Assembly: GCA_946628965.1 (NCBI GenBank)
Contig: CAMOXI010000014.1
Coordinates: 1 to 37,037 of the forward strand
Direction: 5' to 3'
Length of the DNA stretch: 37,037 nucleotides
From: an uncultured Clostridia bacterium
GTDB lineage: Bacteria; Bacillota; Clostridia; Oscillospirales; Oscillospiraceae
Each line of letters opens with the position of its first letter. The stretch's first letter is position 1. This document shows, in pieces, positions 6,157-30,569 of the stretch. The position numbers were made by a program, and so were the translations under genes. Below the pieces are notes generated by a model. That model was not told where the DNA came from. It was given only the letters and a program-made list of their open reading frames with translations, and did no database searches.

Positions 6157-7453
6157 CGTCTTCCTCCTCGTCCGAAGCGCCGTCGCCCTTCAGGAAATAG
6201 ATCATATCGCATTCGGCGTTGGCGGCGACAGCGGCCACCTGCTCCCGCGTCACCTCGCTCACCAGCTCCGCCAGCTCCAGCGGGCCGTACTCCAGCCCGT
6301 CCAGCACCTGGCTCAGATAGAAGCCCTCCAGTTCGCCCTGGCTGTCCATCATGGCGCGCAGGTCGGAGGCAACGCCCATCTTCGCACTCTCAAGCTCCTC
6401 ATCGGTGATCTCGCCCCGGGCCATCGCGGCCAGTTGGGCAAGCACCTCGTCCCGCACGGCCTCGAACTTGTCAAACTCGATGCCGGAGGACACCAGCAGC
6501 AGGCCCTTGTGCGTATCCACCAGCGAGCCCGCGTAGTAGCAGAGCTGCAGCCGCTCGCGCACGTTTGCGAAGAGCTTGGAGGTGGTGCCGCCGCCGAAGC
6601 AGGCGTTGAAGACCAGCAGCGCAGCCGGGTCCGGCTCCTCCATGCTCTCGCCCAGGCGGAAGCCCATCACGAGCTTGCCCTGGCTCACGTCCATGCTCTC
6701 CTCCACAGTGCGGGGCTGCTCCTCCAGCGCGTTCATGCGCACGTCGGTGCCGATCTCGTAGTCGATCTCGCCCCGGGGCAGGGTCATCAGCGCGTCGCGC
6801 AGGTAGGCGATCAGCTGCTTTTCCGCGGCCCGGCCGCAGTAGAAGATTTCGATGGGGCAGCTCTGCAGCAGGCTCTTATAGTGTTTGGAGAGCTTCTGGT
6901 AATGGATGGCCTCGCACTCCTCCTCGCCGCCGAGACGGCCCACCGCGAAATCCTCGCAGCAGCACATCTCCTCCACGCAGCGGAAGAGGGCGTAGCCCCG
7001 CTTGTCGTTGATGCGGCTGCGAATGGTCTCCAGCATTTTCTCCTTCTCGCTGTCCACATACTGGGGCAGGAGCAGGCCGCCGCGGGTGGCCGGGGAGAGC
7101 AGCAGCTCGCCCATGAGGGCCGCCGCCTTCTGCAGCACGCCTTTGCCGCCGGGGAGATAATCCTCCTCCGGGATGCTGGCGTAGAAGCCGATGCCCTGGA
7201 TCTCGCCGATGCGGCGCACCACCGGTTCGATGGCGGTGCCGTAGAGATCCTCCAGCCGTGCCGAGAGGGCCTCCATATCCGGGGAGCGGGTGGTGCCGCG
7301 GCGCAGCACGTAGGGGATCAGCGCGTTCATGGCCGCCGTATCGCGTTTGAGCTGGGTCAGCAGCGTAAGACTCAGGCAGGCGGTTTTGAATTTGTCCGTG
7401 CGCAGATGGCTCAGCCACACGCCGGGCAGGATCTCGGTTCTTGTCAGCTCCAT
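6143..7453 (-). CDS. M16 family protein lacking zinc motif (YmfF-like)
   Basis: A 436-residue M16-fold protein. The place where HxxEH should be reads YVLRRGTTRSPD, so it is expected to be catalytically inactive and to partner the active subunit downstream. A C-terminal half with GFRLG and FGGGTTSKLFANVRERLQL matches the family's substrate-binding region (the R...Y-type motif is seen as RERLQLCYYAGS). The tail is acidic (DEEEDDAED). The ATG has GGAGGTG upstream. It is the first gene of the M16-M16-lgt transcript; an extended -10 promoter sits at 7494-7502, at the very end of the glucan synthase gene. Confidence 0.88.
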   Translation of the reverse strand: MELTRTEILPGVWLSHLRTDKFKTACLSLTLLTQLKRDTAAMNALIPYVLRRGTTRSPDMEALSARLEDLYGTAIEPVVRRIGEIQGIGFYASIPEEDYLPGGKGVLQKAAALMGELLLSPATRGGLLLPQYVDSEKEKMLETIRSRINDKRGYALFRCVEEMCCCEDFAVGRLGGEEECEAIHYQKLSKHYKSLLQSCPIEIFYCGRAAEKQLIAYLRDALMTLPRGEIDYEIGTDVRMNALEEQPRTVEESMDVSQGKLVMGFRLGESMEEPDPAALLVFNACFGGGTTSKLFANVRERLQLCYYAGSLVDTHKGLLLVSSGIEFDKFEAVRDEVLAQLAAMARGEITDEELESAKMGVASDLRAMMDSQGELEGFYLSQVLDGLEYGPLELAELVSEVTREQVAAVAANAECDMIYFLKGDGASDEEEDDAED

Positions 7454-7493: not shown

Positions 7494-7502
7494 ATTATAT
7501 CA
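7494..7502 (-). promoter_or_regulatory. Extended -10 promoter of the M16-lgt operon
   Basis: TGATATAAT on the minus strand (7502-7494) is a perfect TGnTATAAT extended -10; I find no good -35, which such promoters can lack. It overlaps the last codon and stop of the glucan synthase gene. No terminator lies between that gene and the M16 gene, so readthrough is also possible. Confidence 0.55.
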
Positions 7503-18285: not shown

Positions 18286-19875
18286 ATGAAGCGGTGCTTG
18301 CGAAAATATGGGGCGATCACACTGGTGCTCATCGTGATCGCCGGCGTGTGCCTGCTCTTCTCTCACCGCAAGAGCGGCATGTTCATCGACGAGATCTACA
18401 CCTACGGCCTCTCGAACAGCCACTACGCCCCCTACCTGACCGACGCCGCGGGCGGCAGCCTCCGGGATCAGACGCTGACGCGGCAGGACTTTCTCGACTA
18501 TGTGACCGTGGAGGACGACGGGCTGGATCTGGGTTCGGTGTACTATAACCAGGTGCGGGACGTGCATCCCCCGCTCTACTATTGGCTGTTTCACCTCTGC
18601 TCCCAGCTGACGCCCCATTTGTTCACCAAGTGGACCGGCCTTGCGCTGGACGGGCTCATCTATCTGCTGGCCTGCATCCTGCTTTACCGTCTTGTGCTGG
18701 TACTCTATGACAGCCGGTATAACGCCGCCGCCACAGTGGCCCTCTACGGGCTGAGCACCATCGGTCTCTCCACCATGGTGATGATCCGCATGTATGTGCT
18801 GATGACCATGCTGACGGTGCTGCTGGCCCTGCTGGTGGCGGAGCTTGTGAAAAGGCCGCGGCCCTGGCTCTATCCCGCAGTGGGTCTCACCGTCTTTCTC
18901 GGGCTGATGACCCAGTATTACTTCGTGTTCTACGCCTTTTTCCTCTGCGCGGCCTATGTGCTCTATGCGCTCTGCCGGAGGGATTTCAAGTCCCTGGGGC
19001 TTTTCGCCCTCTGCGGCTTTGCGGGCGTGGGGCTGCTGCTGCTGTGCTTTCCCGCGTGTCTGGATCAGCTCTTTGCCGAGAAGCTGGTCTCCGGCGGAAA
19101 CGCGCTGGAAAACCTGCAGAATACCGCGGGCTACAGCCAGCGCTTTGAGCTGATGATCCGCCCGCTGCATCTCAAATATCTGAAAGCCGCACGCTATACG
19201 GCCATCGCGGCTGTGCTCGCCGTGCTGCTCTGCGGCCGCGGCGTCCTGCGCGCCGGGAAGGAAAAGCGCCTCGTCCTGGCACCCACGCTGATCGTGCTGC
19301 TGCCCGCGCTGCTGGTGCTGCCGCTGGTGACGGTGATCTCCCCGGTGCCGGAAAACCGCTATTTCTACAACCTGATCCCGATCCTTGTACTGTGCGTGAG
19401 TTTCCTGCTCCATCTGCTGGAGGCGGGGCTGGGCGAAGTGCCCCATGGCGAACTCTGCAAAAACGCGGCGGTGCTTGCCATCCTGGCCCTCGCCCTCTGG
19501 GAGGCGCGCACCATCCCGCCCGACTATCTCTATCCCCAGTACCGGGACTATGACGCGCAGCTCGCCCCCTACGCCGACGGCCCCTGCGTATACATGACGG
19601 ACGATTACTTCGCCCCCGTGACCCAGGATCTGCTGCAGCTGCTCGCCTTTGACGACGTGTTTCTGACCGGCGATGCGGACTCCGAAGCGCTGGACGGGTA
19701 TCTCGCCGGGAAAGACAGCGATTACTGTGTGGTCTATATCGACGTGAGCCCCTTCTGGTCCAGCGGCTTTGTGCCGGAGGAGATGCTCCCTGCCCTGCTT
19801 GCGAGCACGGACTATGCAAGCTTCTCTCCGCTCTATGAAAACGAACTCTCCGCCGCCTATTTACTCAGCAAATAA
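18286..19875 (+). CDS. GT-C membrane glycosyltransferase (GT39/ArnT-like)
   Basis: A 529-residue polytopic protein with about 11-12 hydrophobic segments. Just after the first helix (8-27) comes the acidic pair Asp35-Glu36 in MFIDEIYTYGLSN, the catalytic loop motif of GT-C enzymes such as PMT/ArnT, which move a sugar from a polyprenyl-phosphate carrier to an outside acceptor. A soluble C-terminal part of about 90 residues follows. I chose the ATG at 18286 (GGGAGG); the longer reading crosses the promoter. The gene leads an operon with a polyprenyl-phosphate glycosyltransferase and a GtrA flippase candidate, which together would make, flip and use the lipid-linked sugar. The acceptor (teichoic acid, polysaccharide or protein) is unknown. 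Confidence 0.85.
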   Translation: MKRCLRKYGAITLVLIVIAGVCLLFSHRKSGMFIDEIYTYGLSNSHYAPYLTDAAGGSLRDQTLTRQDFLDYVTVEDDGLDLGSVYYNQVRDVHPPLYYWLFHLCSQLTPHLFTKWTGLALDGLIYLLACILLYRLVLVLYDSRYNAAATVALYGLSTIGLSTMVMIRMYVLMTMLTVLLALLVAELVKRPRPWLYPAVGLTVFLGLMTQYYFVFYAFFLCAAYVLYALCRRDFKSLGLFALCGFAGVGLLLLCFPACLDQLFAEKLVSGGNALENLQNTAGYSQRFELMIRPLHLKYLKAARYTAIAAVLAVLLCGRGVLRAGKEKRLVLAPTLIVLLPALLVLPLVTVISPVPENRYFYNLIPILVLCVSFLLHLLEAGLGEVPHGELCKNAAVLAILALALWEARTIPPDYLYPQYRDYDAQLAPYADGPCVYMTDDYFAPVTQDLLQLLAFDDVFLTGDADSEALDGYLAGKDSDYCVVYIDVSPFWSSGFVPEEMLPALLASTDYASFSPLYENELSAAYLLSK

Positions 19876-19888
19876 CGAGGTATCCGCT

Positions 19889-20812
19889 ATGTTATCTGTC
19901 ATTCTCCCCTCCTACAACGAGGAACAAATGATCGCCGTCGCGGCGAAAACCGTGACCGGGATCCTGGACGAAGCCGGCATCGACCATGAGCTGCTGTTCG
20001 TGGACGACGGCTCCCGGGACAAAACCTGGGAAGAGATCCAGAAGGCCCATGAGACGAATCCCCATGTGGTCGGCCTGCACTTCAGCCGCAACTTCGGCAA
20101 GGAGGCCGCCATGTTCGCAGGACTGGAGCAGGCGAAGGGCGACTGCTGCGTCGTCATCGACTGCGACCTGCAGCACCCGCCTGAGAAGATCGTGGAGATG
20201 TACCGCCTGTGGGAGCAGGGCTACGAAGTCGTGGAGGGCATCAAGGAAGACCGGGGCGAGGAGACCGGCTTTCACAAGTTCGCCTCTCTCAGCTTCTACC
20301 GCCTGATCAGCATGGCCACAGGGCTGGACATGTCCGCCTCCTCGGACTTCAAGCTGCTGGACCGCAAGGTGGTGGACACGCTCAACAAGATGCCGGAGCG
20401 CAACGTCTTTTTCCGGGCGCTCAGCTTCTGGGTGGGCTTTAAGAAAACGGAAGTCAGCTACCGCGTGCAGGAGCGCACCGCCGGGGAGAGCAAGTGGTCC
20501 ACCCGCTCGCTCATCAAGTACGCCATCAACAACATCGGCTCCTTCTCCTCCGCGCCGCTGCACCTGATCACGATCCTGGGCATCCTGATGCTCGTCACCG
20601 CGGTCATCTTCGGCGTGGTGGCCCTGGTGCAGAAGATCATGGGCACCGCCCTCGGCGGCTTTACCACGGTCATTCTGCTGCTTCTCTTTGCCAGCTCTCT
20701 TATCATGATCTCCCTAGGCATCATCGGCTACTACGTGGCCAGGATCTATGAGGAGATCAAGGGCCGGCCCCGCTACATCATCTCGAAGATCTGCGGGAGG
20801 GATGGGGAATGA
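19889..20812 (+). CDS. Polyprenyl-phosphate glycosyltransferase (GtrB-like GT2)
   Basis: A 307-residue GT2 enzyme that attaches a sugar from a nucleotide sugar to undecaprenyl phosphate on the inner face of the membrane. The GT-A fold shows VDDGSRD (38-44) and the metal-binding D-x-D in DCDLQHPPEK (91-100). Two membrane helices lie near 236-260 and 272-295, as in GtrB/YkcC/DPM-type proteins. The ATG at 19889 is 13 bp after the preceding stop, with AACGAGG as ribosome site; longer readings run into the upstream gene. The stop overlaps the GtrA start by 4 bp, so the two are translationally coupled. Confidence 0.93.
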   Translation: MLSVILPSYNEEQMIAVAAKTVTGILDEAGIDHELLFVDDGSRDKTWEEIQKAHETNPHVVGLHFSRNFGKEAAMFAGLEQAKGDCCVVIDCDLQHPPEKIVEMYRLWEQGYEVVEGIKEDRGEETGFHKFASLSFYRLISMATGLDMSASSDFKLLDRKVVDTLNKMPERNVFFRALSFWVGFKKTEVSYRVQERTAGESKWSTRSLIKYAINNIGSFSSAPLHLITILGILMLVTAVIFGVVALVQKIMGTALGGFTTVILLLLFASSLIMISLGIIGYYVARIYEEIKGRPRYIISKICGRDGE

Positions 20813-21225
20813 TCGAAAAAATCAAGGCTCTCTGCATCAAGTACAAGGAAGTGCTGCTGTATCTGATCTTCGGCGGGCTCACCACAGTGGTCAGCCTGGC
20901 CTCCTTCTGGGTATGCACCTACCCGCTGCACATCAACGTACTCATCTCCAACGTCATCAGCTGGATCTGTGCCGTCACCTTCGCCTACTTCACCAACGCC
21001 AAATGGGTCTTTGAGGCAAAACCCCAGTCACGGGGTGAAGCCCTCCGTCAGTTCGTGTCCTTCTATGCGGGGCGGCTCGCTACCCTCGGTGTGGAGGAGG
21101 CGATCCTGCTGGTGTTCGTGACGCTGCTGCACGGAAACGAAATGATCGTCAAGGTGATCGCCCAGGTGGTGGTCGTTGTCCTTAACTATGTGGTCAGCAA
21201 GCTCTTCGTCTTTAAGAAGAAATAA
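20809..21225 (+). CDS. GtrA family membrane protein
   Basis: A 138-residue protein with four hydrophobic helices, the motif NFxxxxxxVF-like ending (LNYVVSKLFVFKKK) and FAYFTNAKWVF, all typical of GtrA. The family is proposed to flip polyprenyl-phosphate-sugars across the membrane, though direct proof is limited. It overlaps the GT2 gene by ATGA and is the last gene before a strong terminator, completing a make-flip-transfer set with the GT-C enzyme. Confidence 0.92.
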   Translation: MIEKIKALCIKYKEVLLYLIFGGLTTVVSLASFWVCTYPLHINVLISNVISWICAVTFAYFTNAKWVFEAKPQSRGEALRQFVSFYAGRLATLGVEEAILLVFVTLLHGNEMIVKVIAQVVVVVLNYVVSKLFVFKKK

Positions 21226-22820: not shown

Positions 22821-22837
22821 AGTACATAACAAATATG

Positions 22838-22873
22838 AAAGCTGAGAAGAACATGCTTCTCAGCTTTCTTTTT
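22838..22873 (+). terminator. Terminator after the DUF2974 gene
   Basis: AAAGCTGAGAAG (22838-22849) and CTTCTCAGCTTT (22856-22867) form a 12-bp stem with a 6-nt loop, then CTTTTT. It lies between convergent genes; the minus-strand side has only a weak T-tract. Confidence 0.9.
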
Positions 22874-22907: not shown

Positions 22908-25900
22908 TTACGGCTCTTCGACCGGCTGCTCCTTCGCCTTGCGGCTGCGGAACATCAGCTGGGCAAAGAGGATCCCGAACACGGCCAGCAGCACGGCGGC
23001 CACCGGCAGCAGCGCGTTCATGCCGGCGCAGCGGCTGTTCCAGTACACCAGGCTCAGCAGCGCCGCCAGGGCGCCCACCGCAGCCAGCAGTGCGGGGGCA
23101 AAGGCCGTGTGCAGCACGGCCAGCAGCAGTACCGCGAGCAACGCCAGCGCGGCGGCCAGCATCAGGTTCAGCGCCACACGGCGGGAGACGGCGGCCTGCT
23201 CCCCGGCGTTCTCAGCATTCTGCCGGAACACCTGCTCGGCCGCGTTGATCACCTCCGCGGTGGAGGCGGTGCGGCCCGCAAGGGCCTTCACCTGCTCGTT
23301 CTCCATCAGGAGCTGCACGCCCTCGGAGAGGCGCTCCTCCTCGGAGCTGTAATCATCCAGCGCGTTCAGGCTCTCCTGGAGCTTATCCCGGTTCTCTTCC
23401 AGGGTCTCGCGGCCGGAAGTGATCTCCTTCTCCGCATCGGCCAGCTTTTCCTCGCCTTCCTTCAGCTGTTCCCCAGCCTCGGCGAGCTGCTCGTCACCCT
23501 CCTGGATCTGCACCGCGCCGGCGCCGAGCTTGGCATAACCGGCGTCCAGCTGAGCCTTGGCATCGTCAAGCTGCTGCTTGGCGGCGGCCAGCTGCGGCTC
23601 GGCCTCTGCCAGCTGGGCATAGCCCGCGTCCAGCTCCGCCTTGCCCTCGGCCAGCCTTTTCTCGCCCGCAGCCAGCTGCTGTTTGGCGTCTTCCAACTGG
23701 GCATAGCCCGCGTCCAGCTCCGCCTTGCCGTCAGCCAGCTGCTGCTCGGCGGCGGCCAGCTCCGCATAGCCCTTGTCCAGCTCCGCCTTGCCGGCGGCCA
23801 GTTCCTGCTCGGCGGCGGCCAGCTGCCCCGCGGCCACATCCAGCTGCGCCTGGGCATTCTGGTATTCCGCGAGCAGGCCGCTGATGCTGTAGCCGCCCAG
23901 CTGGGTCTCAAAGGCCAGCTGCGCCGCGGCCAGTGTGCTTCCCAGCACCACCGCGGATACGAGATCGCCGCTGGCGACTGCCTCGTCATAGCGGGCCTGG
24001 GCGTCCAGATACTCGTTGTAGAGCGGCATGACCGTATTGTACAGGCCGGACACGGAGTCCAGCGCTGCCTTTGCCTGATCATACTGGGCTTTGCCTTCGT
24101 TGTACTGGGCAAGACCGGCGTCATAAGCCGCCTGACCCTGGGCCAGCTGCTGCTGGCCCGCGTCATGGGCGGCGAGCCCCGCATCGTAGGCGGCCTGCCC
24201 TTCCGCCAGCCTCTTCTCACCGGCGGCGTAATCCGCCTTGCCCTGGTTATACTCGGCAAGGCCCTTGTCATAGGCGGCCTGGCCGTCTTCCAGCTTCTTC
24301 TTGCCGGCCTGGTACTCGGCCAGGGCGGCCTTATACTGCGCAAGGCCCTCGTCATACTGGGCCTGACCGGCGGCCAGTTTGGCGGCGCCCGCTTTGTACT
24401 GCTCCTTCGCGTCGGCGAGCTGGGCGGCGCCTTCATCGTACTTGGCCTTACCGGCCTCGTACTCCTCCAGGCCGGCCAGGTACTGGGCCTCGCCCTCTTC
24501 CAGGTACTGGGTACCGACTTCGTCGGTCACCAGCTGCTCGGCAAACTGATACTTGAGCGCGGCGTACATGGTGCTCTCCGCACCCAGCTTCTCGGACAGC
24601 TCCTTGAGTTCTGCCGTCCGGGCGAGCAGGGCTTCGCTCTGCTCCTTCTCCTGCTTCGAATGCACGCGGCCGCTGCGGAGAATACCGGGCGCGACGATCA
24701 GGGCGAACAGGGCCGCGGCAGCCAGCAGGCCGGCCGCGAAGCGGCGCTGATTTTTCTTCAGGAAGCGCAGCAGGCGCAGGTTTTCGGTGTGGATCGTGGT
24801 CACGGCCACGAACTTGTCGCCCAGCAGCAGGAGCTGCGGCAGGGCAAAGAGGATCAGCACGATGGAAATGCTGGTGCCGGTGCCCACATAGTAGCCCATG
24901 CCCGCGATGATGCACTGGGAGACCTGGAAGCCGATCAGCAGACCGGCGCAGACCATCATCAGACCCGAGGTGATCACCGTCGGGAAGGCCAGGTTCAGCG
25001 TGGTGATGATGGCGTCCTTCGGCTCCATCGTCTCGCGGAACTCCCGGTATCTTGTGGAGACCACGATGGCGTAGTCGATGTTGGCGCCCATCTGGATGGC
25101 GCTGACGATCAGAATGCACAGGAAGAACACCGGGTTTCCCTGCAGCGTCGCAACGGCAAAGTTCATCCAGATACTGCCCTGGATCACCAGGATCAGCAGA
25201 AGCGGCATACCGAAGGATTTAAAGGTGAAGAACAGGATCAGCATCACGAGGCCCAGACTCATCAGGCCCACCACCCGGTTATCCGTGGCGAAGGCGTCCT
25301 TGAAGTCCTTGGCGCTGACAGAGTCGCCCGTCAGGCACACGTCCTCGGGGTAATACTTCGAGGCGAGCACATGGATGCGCTCGAGAAAATCAAAGGTCTC
25401 GTCCGACTGGACGGGCAGGTTCAGATCCAGCACCAGGCGGCTGTAATTCTTGCCCTGCAGTTGGGTCGCCGCCATGCTGAGCTGTCCGTAGAGCTCGTCG
25501 ATCATGGCGCGCTGCTCATTCTCCAGCTCCACGTCGCCCGCTTCCACGCGATCATGCAGGAACAGGAACAGGTCCAGCATCGGGGCCTTATAGTTCTGCA
25601 GGTCGCCAGTGGCGGCGCGGTGGTCGCCCTTTTCCGCGGCGTAGTAGGCAAAGAGCGCCTGCGCCGTGGCATCGTCCACATTCGCGACGGCGGAGAATTC
25701 CGCCGGGCTGATCTCATCGCCCAGGCTGCGGCCGTTCATGACCTCCACGCCGGCAAGACCGCTGGCGCTCTTGACCTCGGGGCAGTCCCCCAGATCCTCC
25801 AGCAGCGCCTTTTCGGAGGCGTAGTCCCCCGTGGGGACCAGCACGGCCACCAGGTTGCTGCCGCCGAAGGCTTCTTCGATCTCGGCCTTGGAGGCCTCAT

Positions 25901-27035
25901 ACTCCGTCTGCCGGAAAGCGGGGACAATATCCACGCAGTAGGCGTAGTTGCAGTGGCCGTAGATCACATAGGCCCCGATCACCAGCGCGACGAAGAAGAT
26001 GGGCAGCACATAGCGCGTGGCATAGGCAAACCTGCCCACGAAGGAGATCTTCGGGACAAAGCGACTGTGCTTCGTCTTGTCCATCGCCTTGCCGAAGAGC
26101 ATCAGCATGGCGGGCATGAACAGGAACACCGTCAGTAGGCTGCAGATGATGGCCTTGATCAGGTTGAGACCCATGTCCGCGCCCAGGCGGAATTTCATGA
26201 AGGTCATGGCCGTGAGACCGGCGATCGTGGTTAGGCTGCTGGCAGAGATTTCGGGAATGGAGGCGGCGAGGGCCTTGACGACCGCGTCGCGGATCTCCAG
26301 CGTCTCGTGCTCTTCCTTATAGCGGTTGCAGAAGATGATGGCGTAGTCCACGCTCAGCGCCAGCTGCAGCACGATGGCCACAGAGTTGGAGACGAAGGAG
26401 ATCGTCCCCATGAGGAAGGTGCTTCCCAGATTGATGATGGCCGCAACCATGAAGGTCAGGATCATCACCGGGATCTCGGCGTAGGTGCTGGAGGTAAACA
26501 GCAGCACCGCCAACACCACGATGACCACGAAAATCAGAACCGTTGCCATCTGCTCGGCAACCAGATCAGCCAGGCTGAAGCCCACCTCGGAGTGGATCGT
26601 GACATCCCGGTCGGCCAGCAGCGCCTTCACGTCGGCCAGCGCCTTCTCGCTCTTTTCCGAGGCCGTCACGTCCCCGAAGGTCACGTCATAGAGGGCGTAG
26701 CCGTCCCGGTAGTGGTTCTCGGTCTCGTCATAGGTCACGAGCACCACATTCTCCACGGACCGGATCTGATCGGCAATTTCCGCCGCCTCCTCCCGGGAGA
26801 CGCGCTTGACCATCACCTGGGCCGTGCCGAAAGTGTTGAACTCGTCCTCCATGATGGTGAGGCCGCGCCGTGCCTCCGCCTCTTCGGCCAGGTAGAAGGT
26901 AATGTCCTCCTCCACCTGGATCCAGCGCACGGAGAAGAAGGAAAAGGCGATCATCGCCGCAAACAGCAGCACAAAGATCCAGCGGTATTTCACGATCGCT
27001 GCTGCGGCGCGTGTCATAAAGGTTTCGCTTTTCAT
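22908..27035 (-). CDS. MMPL/RND transporter with large heptad-repeat domain
   Basis: A 1,375-residue membrane protein. Two MMPL modules are present, each with the proton-relay pair Asp-Tyr: SVDYAIIFCNRY (Asp230-Tyr231) and NIDYAIVVSTRY (Asp654-Tyr655), as in MmpL3-type lipid exporters. After the second module comes an extra helix (FAAGLLAAAALFALIVAPGI), then about 400 residues (about 845-1245) of exact heptads of form xxGxxx(Y/L), then about four hydrophobic helices and a charged tail. The coil is thus anchored in the membrane at both ends and would project outside, like the YhgE/Pip family. The gene is last in an operon after ligase, carrier and acyltransferase genes, so I infer it exports their acylated product. 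The ribosome site is weak (AGAAAGA); a 3-codon reading frame, ATGATCTCATGA, overlaps the start. Confidence 0.9.
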   Translation of the reverse strand: MKSETFMTRAAAAIVKYRWIFVLLFAAMIAFSFFSVRWIQVEEDITFYLAEEAEARRGLTIMEDEFNTFGTAQVMVKRVSREEAAEIADQIRSVENVVLVTYDETENHYRDGYALYDVTFGDVTASEKSEKALADVKALLADRDVTIHSEVGFSLADLVAEQMATVLIFVVIVVLAVLLFTSSTYAEIPVMILTFMVAAIINLGSTFLMGTISFVSNSVAIVLQLALSVDYAIIFCNRYKEEHETLEIRDAVVKALAASIPEISASSLTTIAGLTAMTFMKFRLGADMGLNLIKAIICSLLTVFLFMPAMLMLFGKAMDKTKHSRFVPKISFVGRFAYATRYVLPIFFVALVIGAYVIYGHCNYAYCVDIVPAFRQTEYEASKAEIEEAFGGSNLVAVLVPTGDYASEKALLEDLGDCPEVKSASGLAGVEVMNGRSLGDEISPAEFSAVANVDDATAQALFAYYAAEKGDHRAATGDLQNYKAPMLDLFLFLHDRVEAGDVELENEQRAMIDELYGQLSMAATQLQGKNYSRLVLDLNLPVQSDETFDFLERIHVLASKYYPEDVCLTGDSVSAKDFKDAFATDNRVVGLMSLGLVMLILFFTFKSFGMPLLLILVIQGSIWMNFAVATLQGNPVFFLCILIVSAIQMGANIDYAIVVSTRYREFRETMEPKDAIITTLNLAFPTVITSGLMMVCAGLLIGFQVSQCIIAGMGYYVGTGTSISIVLILFALPQLLLLGDKFVAVTTIHTENLRLLRFLKKNQRRFAAGLLAAAALFALIVAPGILRSGRVHSKQEKEQSEALLARTAELKELSEKLGAESTMYAALKYQFAEQLVTDEVGTQYLEEGEAQYLAGLEEYEAGKAKYDEGAAQLADAKEQYKAGAAKLAAGQAQYDEGLAQYKAALAEYQAGKKKLEDGQAAYDKGLAEYNQGKADYAAGEKRLAEGQAAYDAGLAAHDAGQQQLAQGQAAYDAGLAQYNEGKAQYDQAKAALDSVSGLYNTVMPLYNEYLDAQARYDEAVASGDLVSAVVLGSTLAAAQLAFETQLGGYSISGLLAEYQNAQAQLDVAAGQLAAAEQELAAGKAELDKGYAELAAAEQQLADGKAELDAGYAQLEDAKQQLAAGEKRLAEGKAELDAGYAQLAEAEPQLAAAKQQLDDAKAQLDAGYAKLGAGAVQIQEGDEQLAEAGEQLKEGEEKLADAEKEITSGRETLEENRDKLQESLNALDDYSSEEERLSEGVQLLMENEQVKALAGRTASTAEVINAAEQVFRQNAENAGEQAAVSRRVALNLMLAAALALLAVLLLAVLHTAFAPALLAAVGALAALLSLVYWNSRCAGMNALLPVAAVLLAVFGILFAQLMFRSRKAKEQPVEEP
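23380..24500 (-). repeat. Coding heptad repeat tract of the MMPL gene
   Basis: About 33 consecutive 21-bp units fall in two blocks separated by a non-repetitive stretch at roughly 23,830-24,060. Block one units look like AAGQAQY, DEGLAQY and AEGQAAY; block two like AAGKAEL, DKGYAEL and DAGYAQL. Gly recurs at position 3 and Tyr or Leu at position 7. Near-identical units (DAGYAQL appears several times) imply expansion by duplication. Confidence 0.85.
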
Positions 27036-27073
27036 GAGATCATTCTTTCTAAACTAATGTTTAAACGCCGCAC

Positions 27074-28435
27074 TCAGATGCTCTGGTCGATCAGATCACC
27101 CAGGCGCTTGTCAGGCTCCTTCGCGGCAGCCTCCAGGAACTTCAGCATGAAGTCATGGAAATGGTACAGGCTCTCCGGCTTGGTGTAGCCCAGGGCGTAG
27201 GAGTAATCTGCGTACAGGTCGCCGCTGGTATCCTGCGGCTCGATGAGCAGGTAGAGCGGAATGGGCACAAAGCCGCTGGAGAGCAGGCGGGCGCGGAACT
27301 GCAGCTCGCTCTTGCTCATGTCGAAATAGGGCTGATAGGTCAGCCACACGGATTCGTAGGTGCAGCCGGGCTCGGTATCGAAGCGGGAGTAGATCTCCGG
27401 CTTCATCTTCTCATAGTTGAACCAGGCATGACGATAGATCTCGTTTTCCCGGTCGGCCAGCTTCCGCACCGCCTCGGCGAAGGGCAGATCTTCCGAGAGC
27501 GTCATGCGCACGGGATTGGCCCGGGCAATGCTCATGCCGCTCTGCCGCTGGACCTTGGTGGAGCGAAGGGCCATGGGAGACAGGACCGAAACGTCCTCCG
27601 TGCCGCTGACGCGGCCCAGGAAGGAGCGCAGGGCCATCATGTAATAGACCTGGGGAGAGACCTTCTGCACCGCGGCCGCGTCGTCCACCTTCTTTACAAA
27701 CTCGGCGGGGATGCGGATGGTCAGGATATCGTTATAGAGCTGCTCAAAATTCTGGGCCCGTCCGTAGCGCTTGCCCTCCACGAACTCGGGGCTGCCGAGG
27801 CCGTTGACGGAGGTAAAGCTGGGCTCGGTCTCATACTGGGAGAGCCACCAGGCCGCATTCTTCTCTGCGCGGGCGGAGGAGAAGTAGCTCCGCTCCTCTT
27901 CCAGCAGCTTCCAGGGCTCCATGCCGGGGGCGGGCAGTTCCTCGCCGCGGCTGAGCGCGGTGTAGACTCTGTCCAGATACTGGATGGTGTACATCATGGC
28001 GTAGGCGTCCATGATGAAATGGTGCACGACAAAGTGGAGCACATGCTTGCCGCCGGGCATGCGGATCAGGCGGAAGCGATAGAGCTGCGTTTCCCGCTGA
28101 TTGTTGGGGAAAGGCTCCTGCCGCCACTGGAGGATCAGCTTTTCCAGCTCTTCCTCGCCGCTTTCGCTCAGGTCATAGACGCTGACGGGATCCGGCTCCC
28201 CCTCGCGGAGATACTGCACCACGGTCTCCTCGTCCTGCTGGTGCAGCTGCACGCGGCAGTAGGGCAGGCGCTCGTCCGTAATGCGGATTGCCTTCAGCAG
28301 CCGCTCCTCGTCGATATCGCTGACAAAGTCGATGCGGGTCAGAAGGTAGAGGATGTTCGGCGCGGGGAACACGCTTGCGAGCAGGACAAGGCCTTCCTGC
28401 TCGTCCGAAAGCGGGTAATACTTTCTTTCTTCCAT
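27074..28435 (-). CDS. Condensation-fold acyltransferase (PapA/NRPS C-domain-like)
   Basis: A 453-residue stand-alone condensation-superfamily protein. The catalytic motif HHxxxD(G/A) is present as HHFIMDA (His138, His139, Asp143); the second His is the usual catalytic base. Later the region LYADYSYALGYTKPE takes the place of the DFGWG structural motif. Such proteins use a carrier-bound or CoA-bound acyl group to acylate an amine or alcohol; stand-alone members include PapA enzymes. I chose the ATG at 28435 (GGAGG 6 nt upstream) over a TTG two codons earlier. It lies 16 bp after the acyl carrier protein gene and 38 bp before the transporter, so it is the transfer step between them. Donor and acceptor are unknown. 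Confidence 0.88.
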   Translation of the reverse strand: MEERKYYPLSDEQEGLVLLASVFPAPNILYLLTRIDFVSDIDEERLLKAIRITDERLPYCRVQLHQQDEETVVQYLREGEPDPVSVYDLSESGEEELEKLILQWRQEPFPNNQRETQLYRFRLIRMPGGKHVLHFVVHHFIMDAYAMMYTIQYLDRVYTALSRGEELPAPGMEPWKLLEEERSYFSSARAEKNAAWWLSQYETEPSFTSVNGLGSPEFVEGKRYGRAQNFEQLYNDILTIRIPAEFVKKVDDAAAVQKVSPQVYYMMALRSFLGRVSGTEDVSVLSPMALRSTKVQRQSGMSIARANPVRMTLSEDLPFAEAVRKLADRENEIYRHAWFNYEKMKPEIYSRFDTEPGCTYESVWLTYQPYFDMSKSELQFRARLLSSGFVPIPLYLLIEPQDTSGDLYADYSYALGYTKPESLYHFHDFMLKFLEAAAKEPDKRLGDLIDQSI

Positions 28436-28451
28436 CGTCAACCTCCGCCGC

Positions 28452-28676
28452 TCAGACCTTGGTCTTCAGATAGGCTTCCAGATCGCCCAGCGTGAAGATG
28501 CCGTGCAGATCGCTCGTCTCGATCTCGATGTCGAACTCGTCTTCCACATCGCCGATCATGGTCATAATGTCCAGAGAGGTCATGGCCAGGTCGTCCACAA
28601 ACTTGGTATCGGCGGTCAGGCCGCCTTCGGGCTCATCCACGTAGTTGAGCAGGATCTCACAGATTTTTTCGTACAT
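28452..28676 (-). CDS. Acyl carrier protein (phosphopantetheine-binding)
   Basis: A 74-residue acidic four-helix carrier protein. The phosphopantetheine attachment serine is Ser34 in LAMTSLDIMTMIGDVEDEF, where TSLD replaces the usual DSLD/DSLE. A 4'-phosphopantetheinyl transferase elsewhere in the genome would be needed. AGGAG site upstream. It sits between the ligase gene (25 bp) and the acyltransferase gene (16 bp), so it is presumably a dedicated carrier, loaded by the ligase and unloaded by the acyltransferase, rather than the AcpP of fatty-acid synthesis. Confidence 0.93.
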   Translation of the reverse strand: MYEKICEILLNYVDEPEGGLTADTKFVDDLAMTSLDIMTMIGDVEDEFDIEIETSDLHGIFTLGDLEAYLKTKV

Positions 28677-28701
28677 TGTCGTTTTCTCCTCTTTTTTTCG
28701 A

Positions 28702-30345
28702 TTATTTGTTTGCTGCCGATTTTGTCAGCAGATAGCGCTTGATTTTCATCGTGGTGGTCTTTTCAAAGGGAATGTCGCGGATCTTGATTTTCTTGACGTT
28801 CTTGCTGGCGGGCATTTTACAGTTGAAGGCCTTCACGTCTGCGTCCAGGCGCTCCCTGGCGTCGGGGAACTGCTCCTCGTCCAGATAAAACTCCGCCGTG
28901 ATGTCCTTGTCTTCCTCGTAGACCGCGACTTCCTTCACGTACTCGATGCGGCCCAGCTTCTGTTCCAGCTCCTCGGGCGAGACGTTCTTGCCGTTTGCGA
29001 GGATGATCAGGTTCTTTTTGCGCCCGGTTATGTACAGGAAGCCGTCTTTGTCCATGCGGCCGTAGTCGCCGGTCTTGAACCACTCGCCGTCAAAGGCCTC
29101 CGCCGTGGCTTCCGGATCCTTATAATAGCCCTTCATCACGTTGCTGCCGGAGACGTAGATCTCGCCGATGCCGTTTTCGTCCGGATCATGGATCTTCACT
29201 TTGTTGCAGGGCAGGGGCTTGCCCACGCTGCCGAAACGGAAGTCGTGGTTGCGGTTCACAGCCACCACCGGCGAGCATTCGGTGATGCCGTAGCCGTTGA
29301 TGACGTTGATGCCCAGATCGTAGAGCCCTCGCTGCAGCTTGTCGTCCAGCGCCGCGCCGCCGCAGATGATGGTCTCCAGCCTGCCGCCGAAGCTCTCATG
29401 GATCTGCTTGAACAGGCGCTTGCGCGCATCGATGCCGAGGCCCATCAGCATGTGGCTGAGCGTCAGCATGTTCTTCAGCTTCTGCTCCCGGCCCTGCTTG
29501 CGGGCGTTGTTCCAGATGCCGTTATAGAGCATCTCCACCATCAGGGGGACGGCAGAAATGTTCTGGGGCTTGTTGCGGTTCAGGTCCTTCACGATGCGCT
29601 TCATGTTGCCGCTGATGTGCGCGTCCACCGAGTAGAGGAAGGCCGCGAACATGGCGGAGGCCCAGGAAAAGGTGTGGTTCATGGGCAGGAAGATCTGGGT
29701 GTTGCGGGCGGTGACGCACTTGCAGGTGGCCACCACGTCGCTGGCCAGATTGCCATGCGAGAGCATGACGCCCTTGCTTTTGCCGGAAGTGCCGGAGGTG
29801 TATACGATGCAGGCGATAGTGTCCGGATCCACCGGCGCGCGGTCAAAGAGCGTGCTGCCGGACTCCAGAAGCTTGCGCCCCATCGCCAGATACTCCGAAT
29901 AGTCCGTCAGCGGGAAATAGCGCATCTCGGGGAAAGAGCCGCCCAGGCTCTGGAAGTAGGCGATCTGTTCCCGGTACTTCCCGGAGTAGAAGATCGCCTC
30001 GCAGCCGCAGTGCTCGATAAGCTCCGCCAGATCCTCGGCCGAGAGCTCCTTGTCCAGCGGGACGGCCACGTTGCCGCTGTTGGTGATGGAAAAATAACTC
30101 AGGCACCACTCGGTGGAGTTTTCGCCCAGCAGGGCGATATGGCTGCCCTGAAAGCCCAGCTCCTGCAGATAGGTGCCGACCGCCCGGATATTCTCGGCGG
30201 CCTGGATAAAGGTCATCGGCTCGTCATTCTGCCGGCCGGTGTAAAGAATCGTATTGTCCGCTCCGTTTTCCCTGCCGTATTCGATCAGATCGCGCAGCGT
30301 CGCGACCTCTGCGATGTCATAGTAGGGATAGGGTCCGTTTCTCAT
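28702..30345 (-). CDS. Adenylate-forming acyl ligase (FadD/FAAL-like)
   Basis: A 547-residue ANL-superfamily enzyme that activates a carboxylate with ATP and passes it to a thiol. Motifs: P-loop YTSGTSGKSKG (182-192), NGYGITECSP (350-359), TGDYGRMDKDGFLYITGRKK (425-444), NVSPEELE (454-461) and the C-terminal lysine region TTTMKIKR (530-537). The overall look is that of long-chain acyl-CoA synthetases; with a carrier protein gene directly downstream, acyl-ACP loading is the likelier role. I start at the ATG at 30345, which has a GGAGGA site; the longer reading adds 31 residues without a good site. First gene of the ligase-ACP-acyltransferase-MMPL operon. The substrate (fatty acid or amino acid) cannot be read by eye. 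Confidence 0.9.
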   Translation of the reverse strand: MRNGPYPYYDIAEVATLRDLIEYGRENGADNTILYTGRQNDEPMTFIQAAENIRAVGTYLQELGFQGSHIALLGENSTEWCLSYFSITNSGNVAVPLDKELSAEDLAELIEHCGCEAIFYSGKYREQIAYFQSLGGSFPEMRYFPLTDYSEYLAMGRKLLESGSTLFDRAPVDPDTIACIVYTSGTSGKSKGVMLSHGNLASDVVATCKCVTARNTQIFLPMNHTFSWASAMFAAFLYSVDAHISGNMKRIVKDLNRNKPQNISAVPLMVEMLYNGIWNNARKQGREQKLKNMLTLSHMLMGLGIDARKRLFKQIHESFGGRLETIICGGAALDDKLQRGLYDLGINVINGYGITECSPVVAVNRNHDFRFGSVGKPLPCNKVKIHDPDENGIGEIYVSGSNVMKGYYKDPEATAEAFDGEWFKTGDYGRMDKDGFLYITGRKKNLIILANGKNVSPEELEQKLGRIEYVKEVAVYEEDKDITAEFYLDEEQFPDARERLDADVKAFNCKMPASKNVKKIKIRDIPFEKTTTMKIKRYLLTKSAANK

Positions 30346-30404: not shown

Positions 30405-30432
30405 AGTTTATTTTACGCGGTTCAGCTGTCAA
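30405..30432 (-). promoter_or_regulatory. Candidate promoter of the ligase-ACP-MMPL operon
   Basis: On the minus strand a perfect TTGACA (30432-30427), 16 bp, then TAAACT (30410-30405). A second -10 candidate, TATAAT, is at 30390-30385 without a good -35. The same TAAACT hexamer serves the symporter promoter at 31997-32025. Confidence 0.45.
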
Positions 30433-30526
30433 TGGCAATTCTTTTTTTCTCCTATTATTTCATTTCTACATTTTGACAACACGGCATCATCATTCCCTGC
30501 CTCCCTTTGGCAAATGATACAAACAG

Positions 30527-30554
30527 AAAAAAGCCTCCGAAACGGAGGCTTTTT
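30527..30554. terminator. Terminator of the GPH symporter gene
   Basis: AAAAGCCTCCG (30529-30539) and CGGAGGCTTTT (30543-30553) around an AAA loop, with A/T runs on both sides; on the minus strand it follows the symporter stop by 16 bp. Confidence 0.9.
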
Positions 30555-30569
30555 CCGGGAAAACGGCGC

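Follow-up and report, generated by a model that had tools for sequence, protein, structure and literature searches.

Which product might a bacterial operon build and release when it combines an adenylate-forming ligase, an acyl carrier protein (ACP), a stand-alone condensation-fold protein (C) and an MMPL transporter? The four genes lie in the window, the whole stretch of 37,037 nucleotides analysed here, and the first-pass annotation had compared them with the lipid-assembly lines of mycobacteria. Our comparisons suggest another kinship, in which the operon might be a sister of the gut FAA pathway that is coupled to an exporter, with an acceptor enzyme that seems to have been exchanged between species.

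Anatomy of the locus

The window belongs to contig C14 of a 2.18-Mb MAG, which is 74.8% complete and whose uncultured source is probably a gut-type bacterium. The features of the locus are the following.

22837..22868, no single strand: hairpin between the operon end and a convergent Mbeg1-like gene, terminator-like on both strands
22908..27035, minus strand: MMPL transporter, 1375 aa (PF03176, 6.7e-40 over two stretches)
27074..28435, minus strand: stand-alone condensation-fold protein C, 453 aa from ATG, motif HHFIMDA (PF00668, 4.7e-37)
28452..28676, minus strand: ACP, 74 aa (PF00550, PP-binding, 6.4e-10)
28702..30345, minus strand: adenylate-forming ligase, 547 aa from ATG (PF00501, AMP-binding, 8.8e-66)
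30405..30438, minus strand: a pair of overlapping sigma-70-like promoter matches ahead of the ligase ATG (consensus matches only)
30526..30556, minus strand: terminator-like hairpin of 14 pairs with a T-rich tail, separating the operon from the MFS gene upstream of it

The ORFs bear out four same-strand genes in the order ligase, ACP, C and MMPL, together with the previously described intergenic gaps of 25, 16 and 38 bp. The unit indeed extends over 22908–30345, whereas the interval under which it had been entered, 28452–30345, spans the ligase and the ACP only. The ligase start was picked by alignment with relatives starting M(K/R)NxPYPYY; an alternative TTG at 30438 would give 578 aa, and a TTG at 28441 would give a C protein of 455 aa. 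The phosphopantetheine site of the ACP is likely the serine in MTSLDIM. The transporter is composed of two MMPL halves, a heptad-type coiled-coil (about residues 820–1240) and C-terminal hydrophobic segments. Its PF03176 domains and both of the Asp-Tyr pairs noticed earlier, located at D230-Y231 and D654-Y655, place it in the MMPL family. Terminator-like sites number 14 in the region against 6.7 expected in shuffles, and sigma-70-like promoter matches 7 against 2.2. Two neighbouring observations may be recorded here. A glycosyltransferase 2 and GtrA pair at 19769–21225 (plus strand) is convergent with the operon, and a GtrA gene is also contained in the operon of the related locus L009. A second MMPL protein (842-aa frame) is encoded elsewhere in the window's genome (G000:C3:47222-49096).

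That no multi-domain NRPS is present, as had been proposed, holds across the 74.8%-complete MAG, in which PF00668 matched once, at the C protein itself. The 2266-aa minus-strand ORF at 7500–14300 matches GH94 and glucoamylase families and possibly encodes a beta-glucan synthase/phosphorylase type protein. The C, adenylating and carrier proteins are separate ORFs and not the multidomain chain of a canonical NRPS, and no PKS module was seen next to the operon.

Kinship of the condensation-fold protein

The FAA pathway consists of separate, free-standing A, ACP and C proteins, exemplified by OaaA/OaaACP/OaaC, the oleoyl aminovaleric acid pathway of Coprococcus eutactus (PMC13142362; PDB 12KH). 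The nearest solved chain to the window's C protein is OaaC (12KH; E 3.7e-29, residues 6–452 of 455), at about 23% identity. In a tree of 65 proteins, the window's clade is sister to the OaaC group, not inside it, and together with 20 OaaC-type rows it separates from 14 NRPS or other C domains with a support of 100/99. These 20 rows make up the OaaC side of the tree, without the FAA paper's own 127-sequence set; L057–L075 (19) cluster with OaaC and L076 with other C domains. The loci L057–L076 derive from a class-wide search that matched 67 of 391 genomes at E <= 1e-15, NRPS included, and from whose best matches 20 loci were taken. The AlphaFold2 model of C (pLDDT 92.1) has its closest structure matches, among the best 50, in the starter/lipid-type C domains CDA-C1 and RzmA, tied with LgrA. 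Neither a PapA chain nor 12KH occurs among these 50, which by itself does not exclude a PapA kinship.

The motif HHFIMDA was confirmed. Its last place is variable among FAA C proteins (S in 42%, A in 36% and G in 17% of 127; PMC13142362), and the alanine of the window's protein fits (D/H)HxxxD followed by S, A or G. The motif opens with His, like that of canonical NRPS C domains, whereas all FAA-type rows except L072–L075 have Asp at this place. The motif also differs among the window's relatives, with HHFIMDA in the window, L004, L005 and L006, and EH or QH followed by DG at the end in L007–L011.

At the level of the operon, the window shares with the FAA pathway a free-standing ligase, ACP and C encoded together, but the arrangement differs. 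The order is C-ACP-ligase in 18 of 19 OaaC-type loci (OaaC's own locus is outside this set; the remaining one, L074, is cut by a contig end), against ligase-ACP-C-MMPL in the window's clade. No MMPL was found by blastp and HMM among 1032 ORFs of the 20 class-wide loci, some of which are short. As a positive control, the HMM found the gene in L092 and in five of five actinomycete loci outside its building set; because some out-of-frame ORFs matched, it contains a stray row, which makes it looser and not stricter. A literature search on condensation domains or fatty acid amides with MMPL, gut, ACP or recombination returned nothing; Chang et al. 2021 (Nat Microbiol), a study credited with discovering FAA clusters, was outside its reach, so exporter-coupled clusters may be in print.

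We consider it reasonably probable that the operon is a factory for lipid conjugates, FAA-like and equipped with its own exporter. By analogy with OaaA/OaaACP and from the protein families, the ligase would adenylate a fatty acid and load the ACP. On the model of OaaC, the C protein would take the acyl group over from the ACP and pass it to a small nucleophile that diffuses freely. This acceptor is most likely an amine, in which case an N-acyl amide would result. The MMPL protein, judged from its family and conserved position, would then move the product out of the cell or the membrane in a proton-driven manner. The logic of activation, carriage, transfer and export proposed at first reading thus fits what we found, including the missing NRPS module and the lack of a visible PKS, once the mycobacterial frame is removed from it.

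The C protein might instead be an O-acyltransferase, with activation and export alike, acting on an alcohol, polyol, sugar or envelope lipid to yield an ester lipid. The condensation fold serves ester formation in other systems, and both the distance from OaaC and the HHFIMDA motif, set against the Asp-first motif of most FAA rows, would be compatible with this. However, C is kin to OaaC and not to the sampled NRPS or other C domains, and a protein of the amide-forming GH3 family is encoded in two relatives' operons (L008 and L009; PF03321, 5e-60 and 4e-55), so we regard ester formation as unlikely. These two are the only PF03321 matches in nine operon genomes; the window's genome has none. 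From a fatty acid, ornithine and ATP, the bacterial GH3 enzyme OlsH forms N-acyl ornithine (PMC12493201). It would resemble the reaction considered here in joining a fatty acid and an amine to an amide with ATP, and homologues lie inside the L008 and L009 operons, but OlsH, as described there, combines activation and transfer in one enzyme, and the window's genome is without a GH3 match.

Conservation of the operon and exchange of the C gene

The ligase was found at E <= 1e-120 in 9 of 102 genus genomes: the window's, those of L004, L005 and L007–L011, and G030 (L092). Seven of the nine, including the window's, hold complete sets, one is cut (L011) and one is without C (G030); counted as complete are L008 and L009 with extra genes between, L005 with a shortened ACP and L009 with an MMPL running off the contig end. 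Co-conservation of the gene order had been named as a first test of the operon, and the gene set is kept together in relatives; because the four genes occur together in seven of nine ligase-holding genomes, the arrangement goes beyond what chance would give. Within the genus the operon is nevertheless rare, since the C-protein search matched 2 of 60 genus genomes at E <= 1e-20, one of them the window's. A contig scan gave 23 loci, comprising eight window-like loci (L004–L011), two from Bifidobacterium (L012, L013) and 13 others in which C lies within other, mostly large, ORFs. MMPL is next in six of the eight; L006 has none within 17 kb, and L011 stops at the contig end. In the L005 ACP (6704–6875), 48 of 74 residues align, and its 3' part seems shortened in frame beside the boundary of the C exchange described below.

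Comparison of these loci revealed that C is a cassette exchanged between species, whereas ligase, ACP and MMPL form a conserved chassis. With MMPL identities taken over the first 760 aa, L004 and L010 share 98% (ligase), 99% (ACP) and 96% (MMPL) but 37% in C; L005 and L010 share 98% (ligase) and 99% (MMPL) but 37% in C; the window and L007 share 89, 78 and 82% but 41% in C; and L009 and L011 share 90% (ligase) and 92% (ACP) but 42% in C. DNA identity between L004 and L010 is 92% as far as the ACP stop codon and 94% from the start of the MMPL ORF, but 38–57% per 100 bases in the stretch between these points. The window and L007 have in common the SDF and MFS genes upstream and the Mbeg1-like gene downstream; their exchange boundary at MMPL is not sharp because the MMPL start has diverged too. 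The C alignment rejects the ligase groupings {L004, L005, L010} (p-AU 2.5e-41), {window, L007} (1.7e-11) and {L009, L011} (3.3e-5), which were chosen after the identities had been seen; in the ligase tree, the latter two are supported by only 94/95 and 86/88. Over the 36 pairs of nine window-type loci, ligase identity exceeds C identity by 30 points on average and 62 at most, whereas nothing comparable is seen in the 136 control pairs of 17 OaaC-type loci (mean 4.5, maximum 18 points).

The loci L009 and L011 each retain debris of the other's cassette, as judged from reciprocal fragments. In L009, a C of intact length precedes genes for GH3 and GtrA, and a stretch of 288 bp directly ahead of MMPL matches the end of the L011 C at 90% identity. 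L011, whose C sits between ligase and ACP, has behind its ACP fragments related to a C of the L009 type (E 9e-20), to GH3 (E 4e-6) and to GtrA (E 2e-12). The GC3 of C is lower than that of the ligase in L010 (0.58 against 0.84) and L007 (0.63 against 0.86), but a foreign composition of C is clear only in L010, because the ACP and MMPL of L007 are low too (0.71 and 0.72) and C and ligase agree in the window, L008 and L009. At least three exchanges would be consistent with the eight loci of one genus that carry C. Chimeric assembly is an unlikely cause, since differing C proteins occur on several contigs (their clusters P0010, P0028 and P0032 count 14, 21 and 3) and the contigs of L010, L004, L005 and L007 measure 54–112 kb; L009 and L011 lie on short ones (9 and 18 kb). 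A mobile carrier of C was not found on plasmids, the eight records there being C of other proteins at 21–25% identity. The description of the locus as a minimal pathway therefore needs qualification: the gene set is compact, but its C is exchangeable, and ligase-ACP-MMPL is found in G030 without C in between.

G030, whose 92%-complete genome has no PF00668 or PF03321 match, might also suggest that the MMPL protein has its own cargo. Ligase, ACP and MMPL would then share a job, such as acyl supply and membrane lipid export, and C would be an add-on using the same acyl-ACP. Since C changes while MMPL remains 96–99% identical, the transporter is either broad or not carrying the C product. However, in L004, L007, L008, L010 and the window C stands between ACP and MMPL with short gaps, and an exporter of another family is placed beside ligase, ACP and C in Bifidobacterium vansinderenii and B. 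tissieri (L012, L013), which makes a separate cargo improbable in our judgement. The Bifidobacterium order is ligase-ACP-ABC ATPase-FtsX permease-C-PPTase (from Pfam matches in L012 and from a comparison of L013 with it), with identities to the window of 34–35% (ligase), 46% (ACP) and 33% (C); an ABC/FtsX exporter and a PPTase replace MMPL, and the permease also carries a coiled-coil-like stretch. By analogy, this exporter would be a parallel to, not proof of, export in the window.

If the operon is the FAA-like factory proposed above, the C protein should set the acceptor, by analogy with OaaC, and since it is replaced as a unit on a conserved chassis, it is probably the head group that differs between species, with activation and export unaltered. 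We tentatively extend this to a constant chassis of fatty acid activation, carrier and MMPL exporter that takes interchangeable head-group modules, C or C with GH3, by which closely related gut bacteria would retain the pathway and change the exported N-acyl molecule, although we hold this wider picture with less confidence than the factory itself.

Ligase substrate and possible meaning of the operon

The best NCBIfam match of the ligase is the long-chain-fatty-acid-CoA ligase PRK06187, below the cut-off, and its best PDB matches are feruloyl-CoA/fatty-acyl-CoA synthetases and FadD13; an AlphaFold2 model from 10 rows (pLDDT 57) was set aside. At E <= 1e-110, distant homologues occur in 27 of 394 genomes, one being the window's; among loci from 20 of the 26 others, none had a match to the window's MMPL and five had an ACP-like match somewhere in the stretch. 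One locus (L114:8929-18045, G809) encodes a 2410-aa NRPS-like ORF, directly after which come homologues of the ligase (44%) and the ACP (36%) of the window. The L009 ligase (935–2533) is without the P-loop stretch present in all other aligned ligases, through a deletion or an assembly fault. A PPTase match is missing in the window's 74.8%-complete MAG and present in 50 of 61 genus genomes searched.

It is very unlikely that the ligase activates an amino acid in the manner of an NRPS A-domain or DltA, with an aminoacyl-ACP: TIGR01733 matches far under its cut-off (140.9 against 317.4 bits) and LgrA chains are among the PDB matches, but PRK06187, although also under its cut-off, is the best family match, fatty-acyl-type synthetases head the PDB matches, full-length ligases from OaaC-type loci are 32–38% identical, and Pfam scanning of five neighbours gave no Dlt-type match, DltB/DltD partners included.

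A true mycobacterial-type FAAL-PapA-MmpL assembly line can hardly be credited either. The enzyme classes do match, with a ligase, a condensation-fold acyltransferase and an MMPL transporter together as in the PDIM and SL-1 systems, and MmpL proteins of M. tuberculosis cooperate with their synthesis machinery (PMC1238737). At the family level, however, the comparison breaks down, and we rejected it on the missing ligase insertion and the kinship of C with OaaC; no PKS module is seen beside the operon. An insertion after the A5 motif is typical of FAALs. In our alignment, which leaves out the L016 row (wrong reading frame), it is absent from all five window-type rows and present in the actinomycete ligases L014, L018, L019 and L021, which we take to be FAALs. 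C matches only PF00668 in Pfam at E <= 0.001, whereas a PapA acyltransferase would be expected to match a PapA-specific family besides Condensation. In Streptosporangium, Planomonospora and Planobispora (L014–L019, L021, L026), ligase, MMPL and NRPS-like genes stand in a row, an arrangement that does resemble actinobacterial FAAL-MmpL-NRPS lines.

For an FAA-like factory with its own exporter speak, at the level of sequence and model, the OaaC kinship, the free-standing A/ACP/C set, the alanine of the motif, MMPL in six of eight loci, GH3 in two relatives, the starter/lipid-type model matches and the other exporter of Bifidobacterium. Against it would count the identity of about 23% to OaaC, the sister-group place, the His-first motif, G030 without C, L006 without MMPL and the missing PPTase match.

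FAAs from gut Clostridia activate host GPCRs (PMC13142362). An exporter-bearing sister group with natural exchange of the acceptor enzyme would reveal a possible way out of the cell for such products, and the natural swaps, in which ligase and ACP are alike and C differs, offer a way to learn what sets the head group. If head-group modules are indeed interchangeable on a constant chassis, cassette switching is what one would expect of a compound that serves in signalling, recognition or competition and is under diversifying selection, and through the operon, genomes might be used to tell which lipid conjugate a given bacterium makes.
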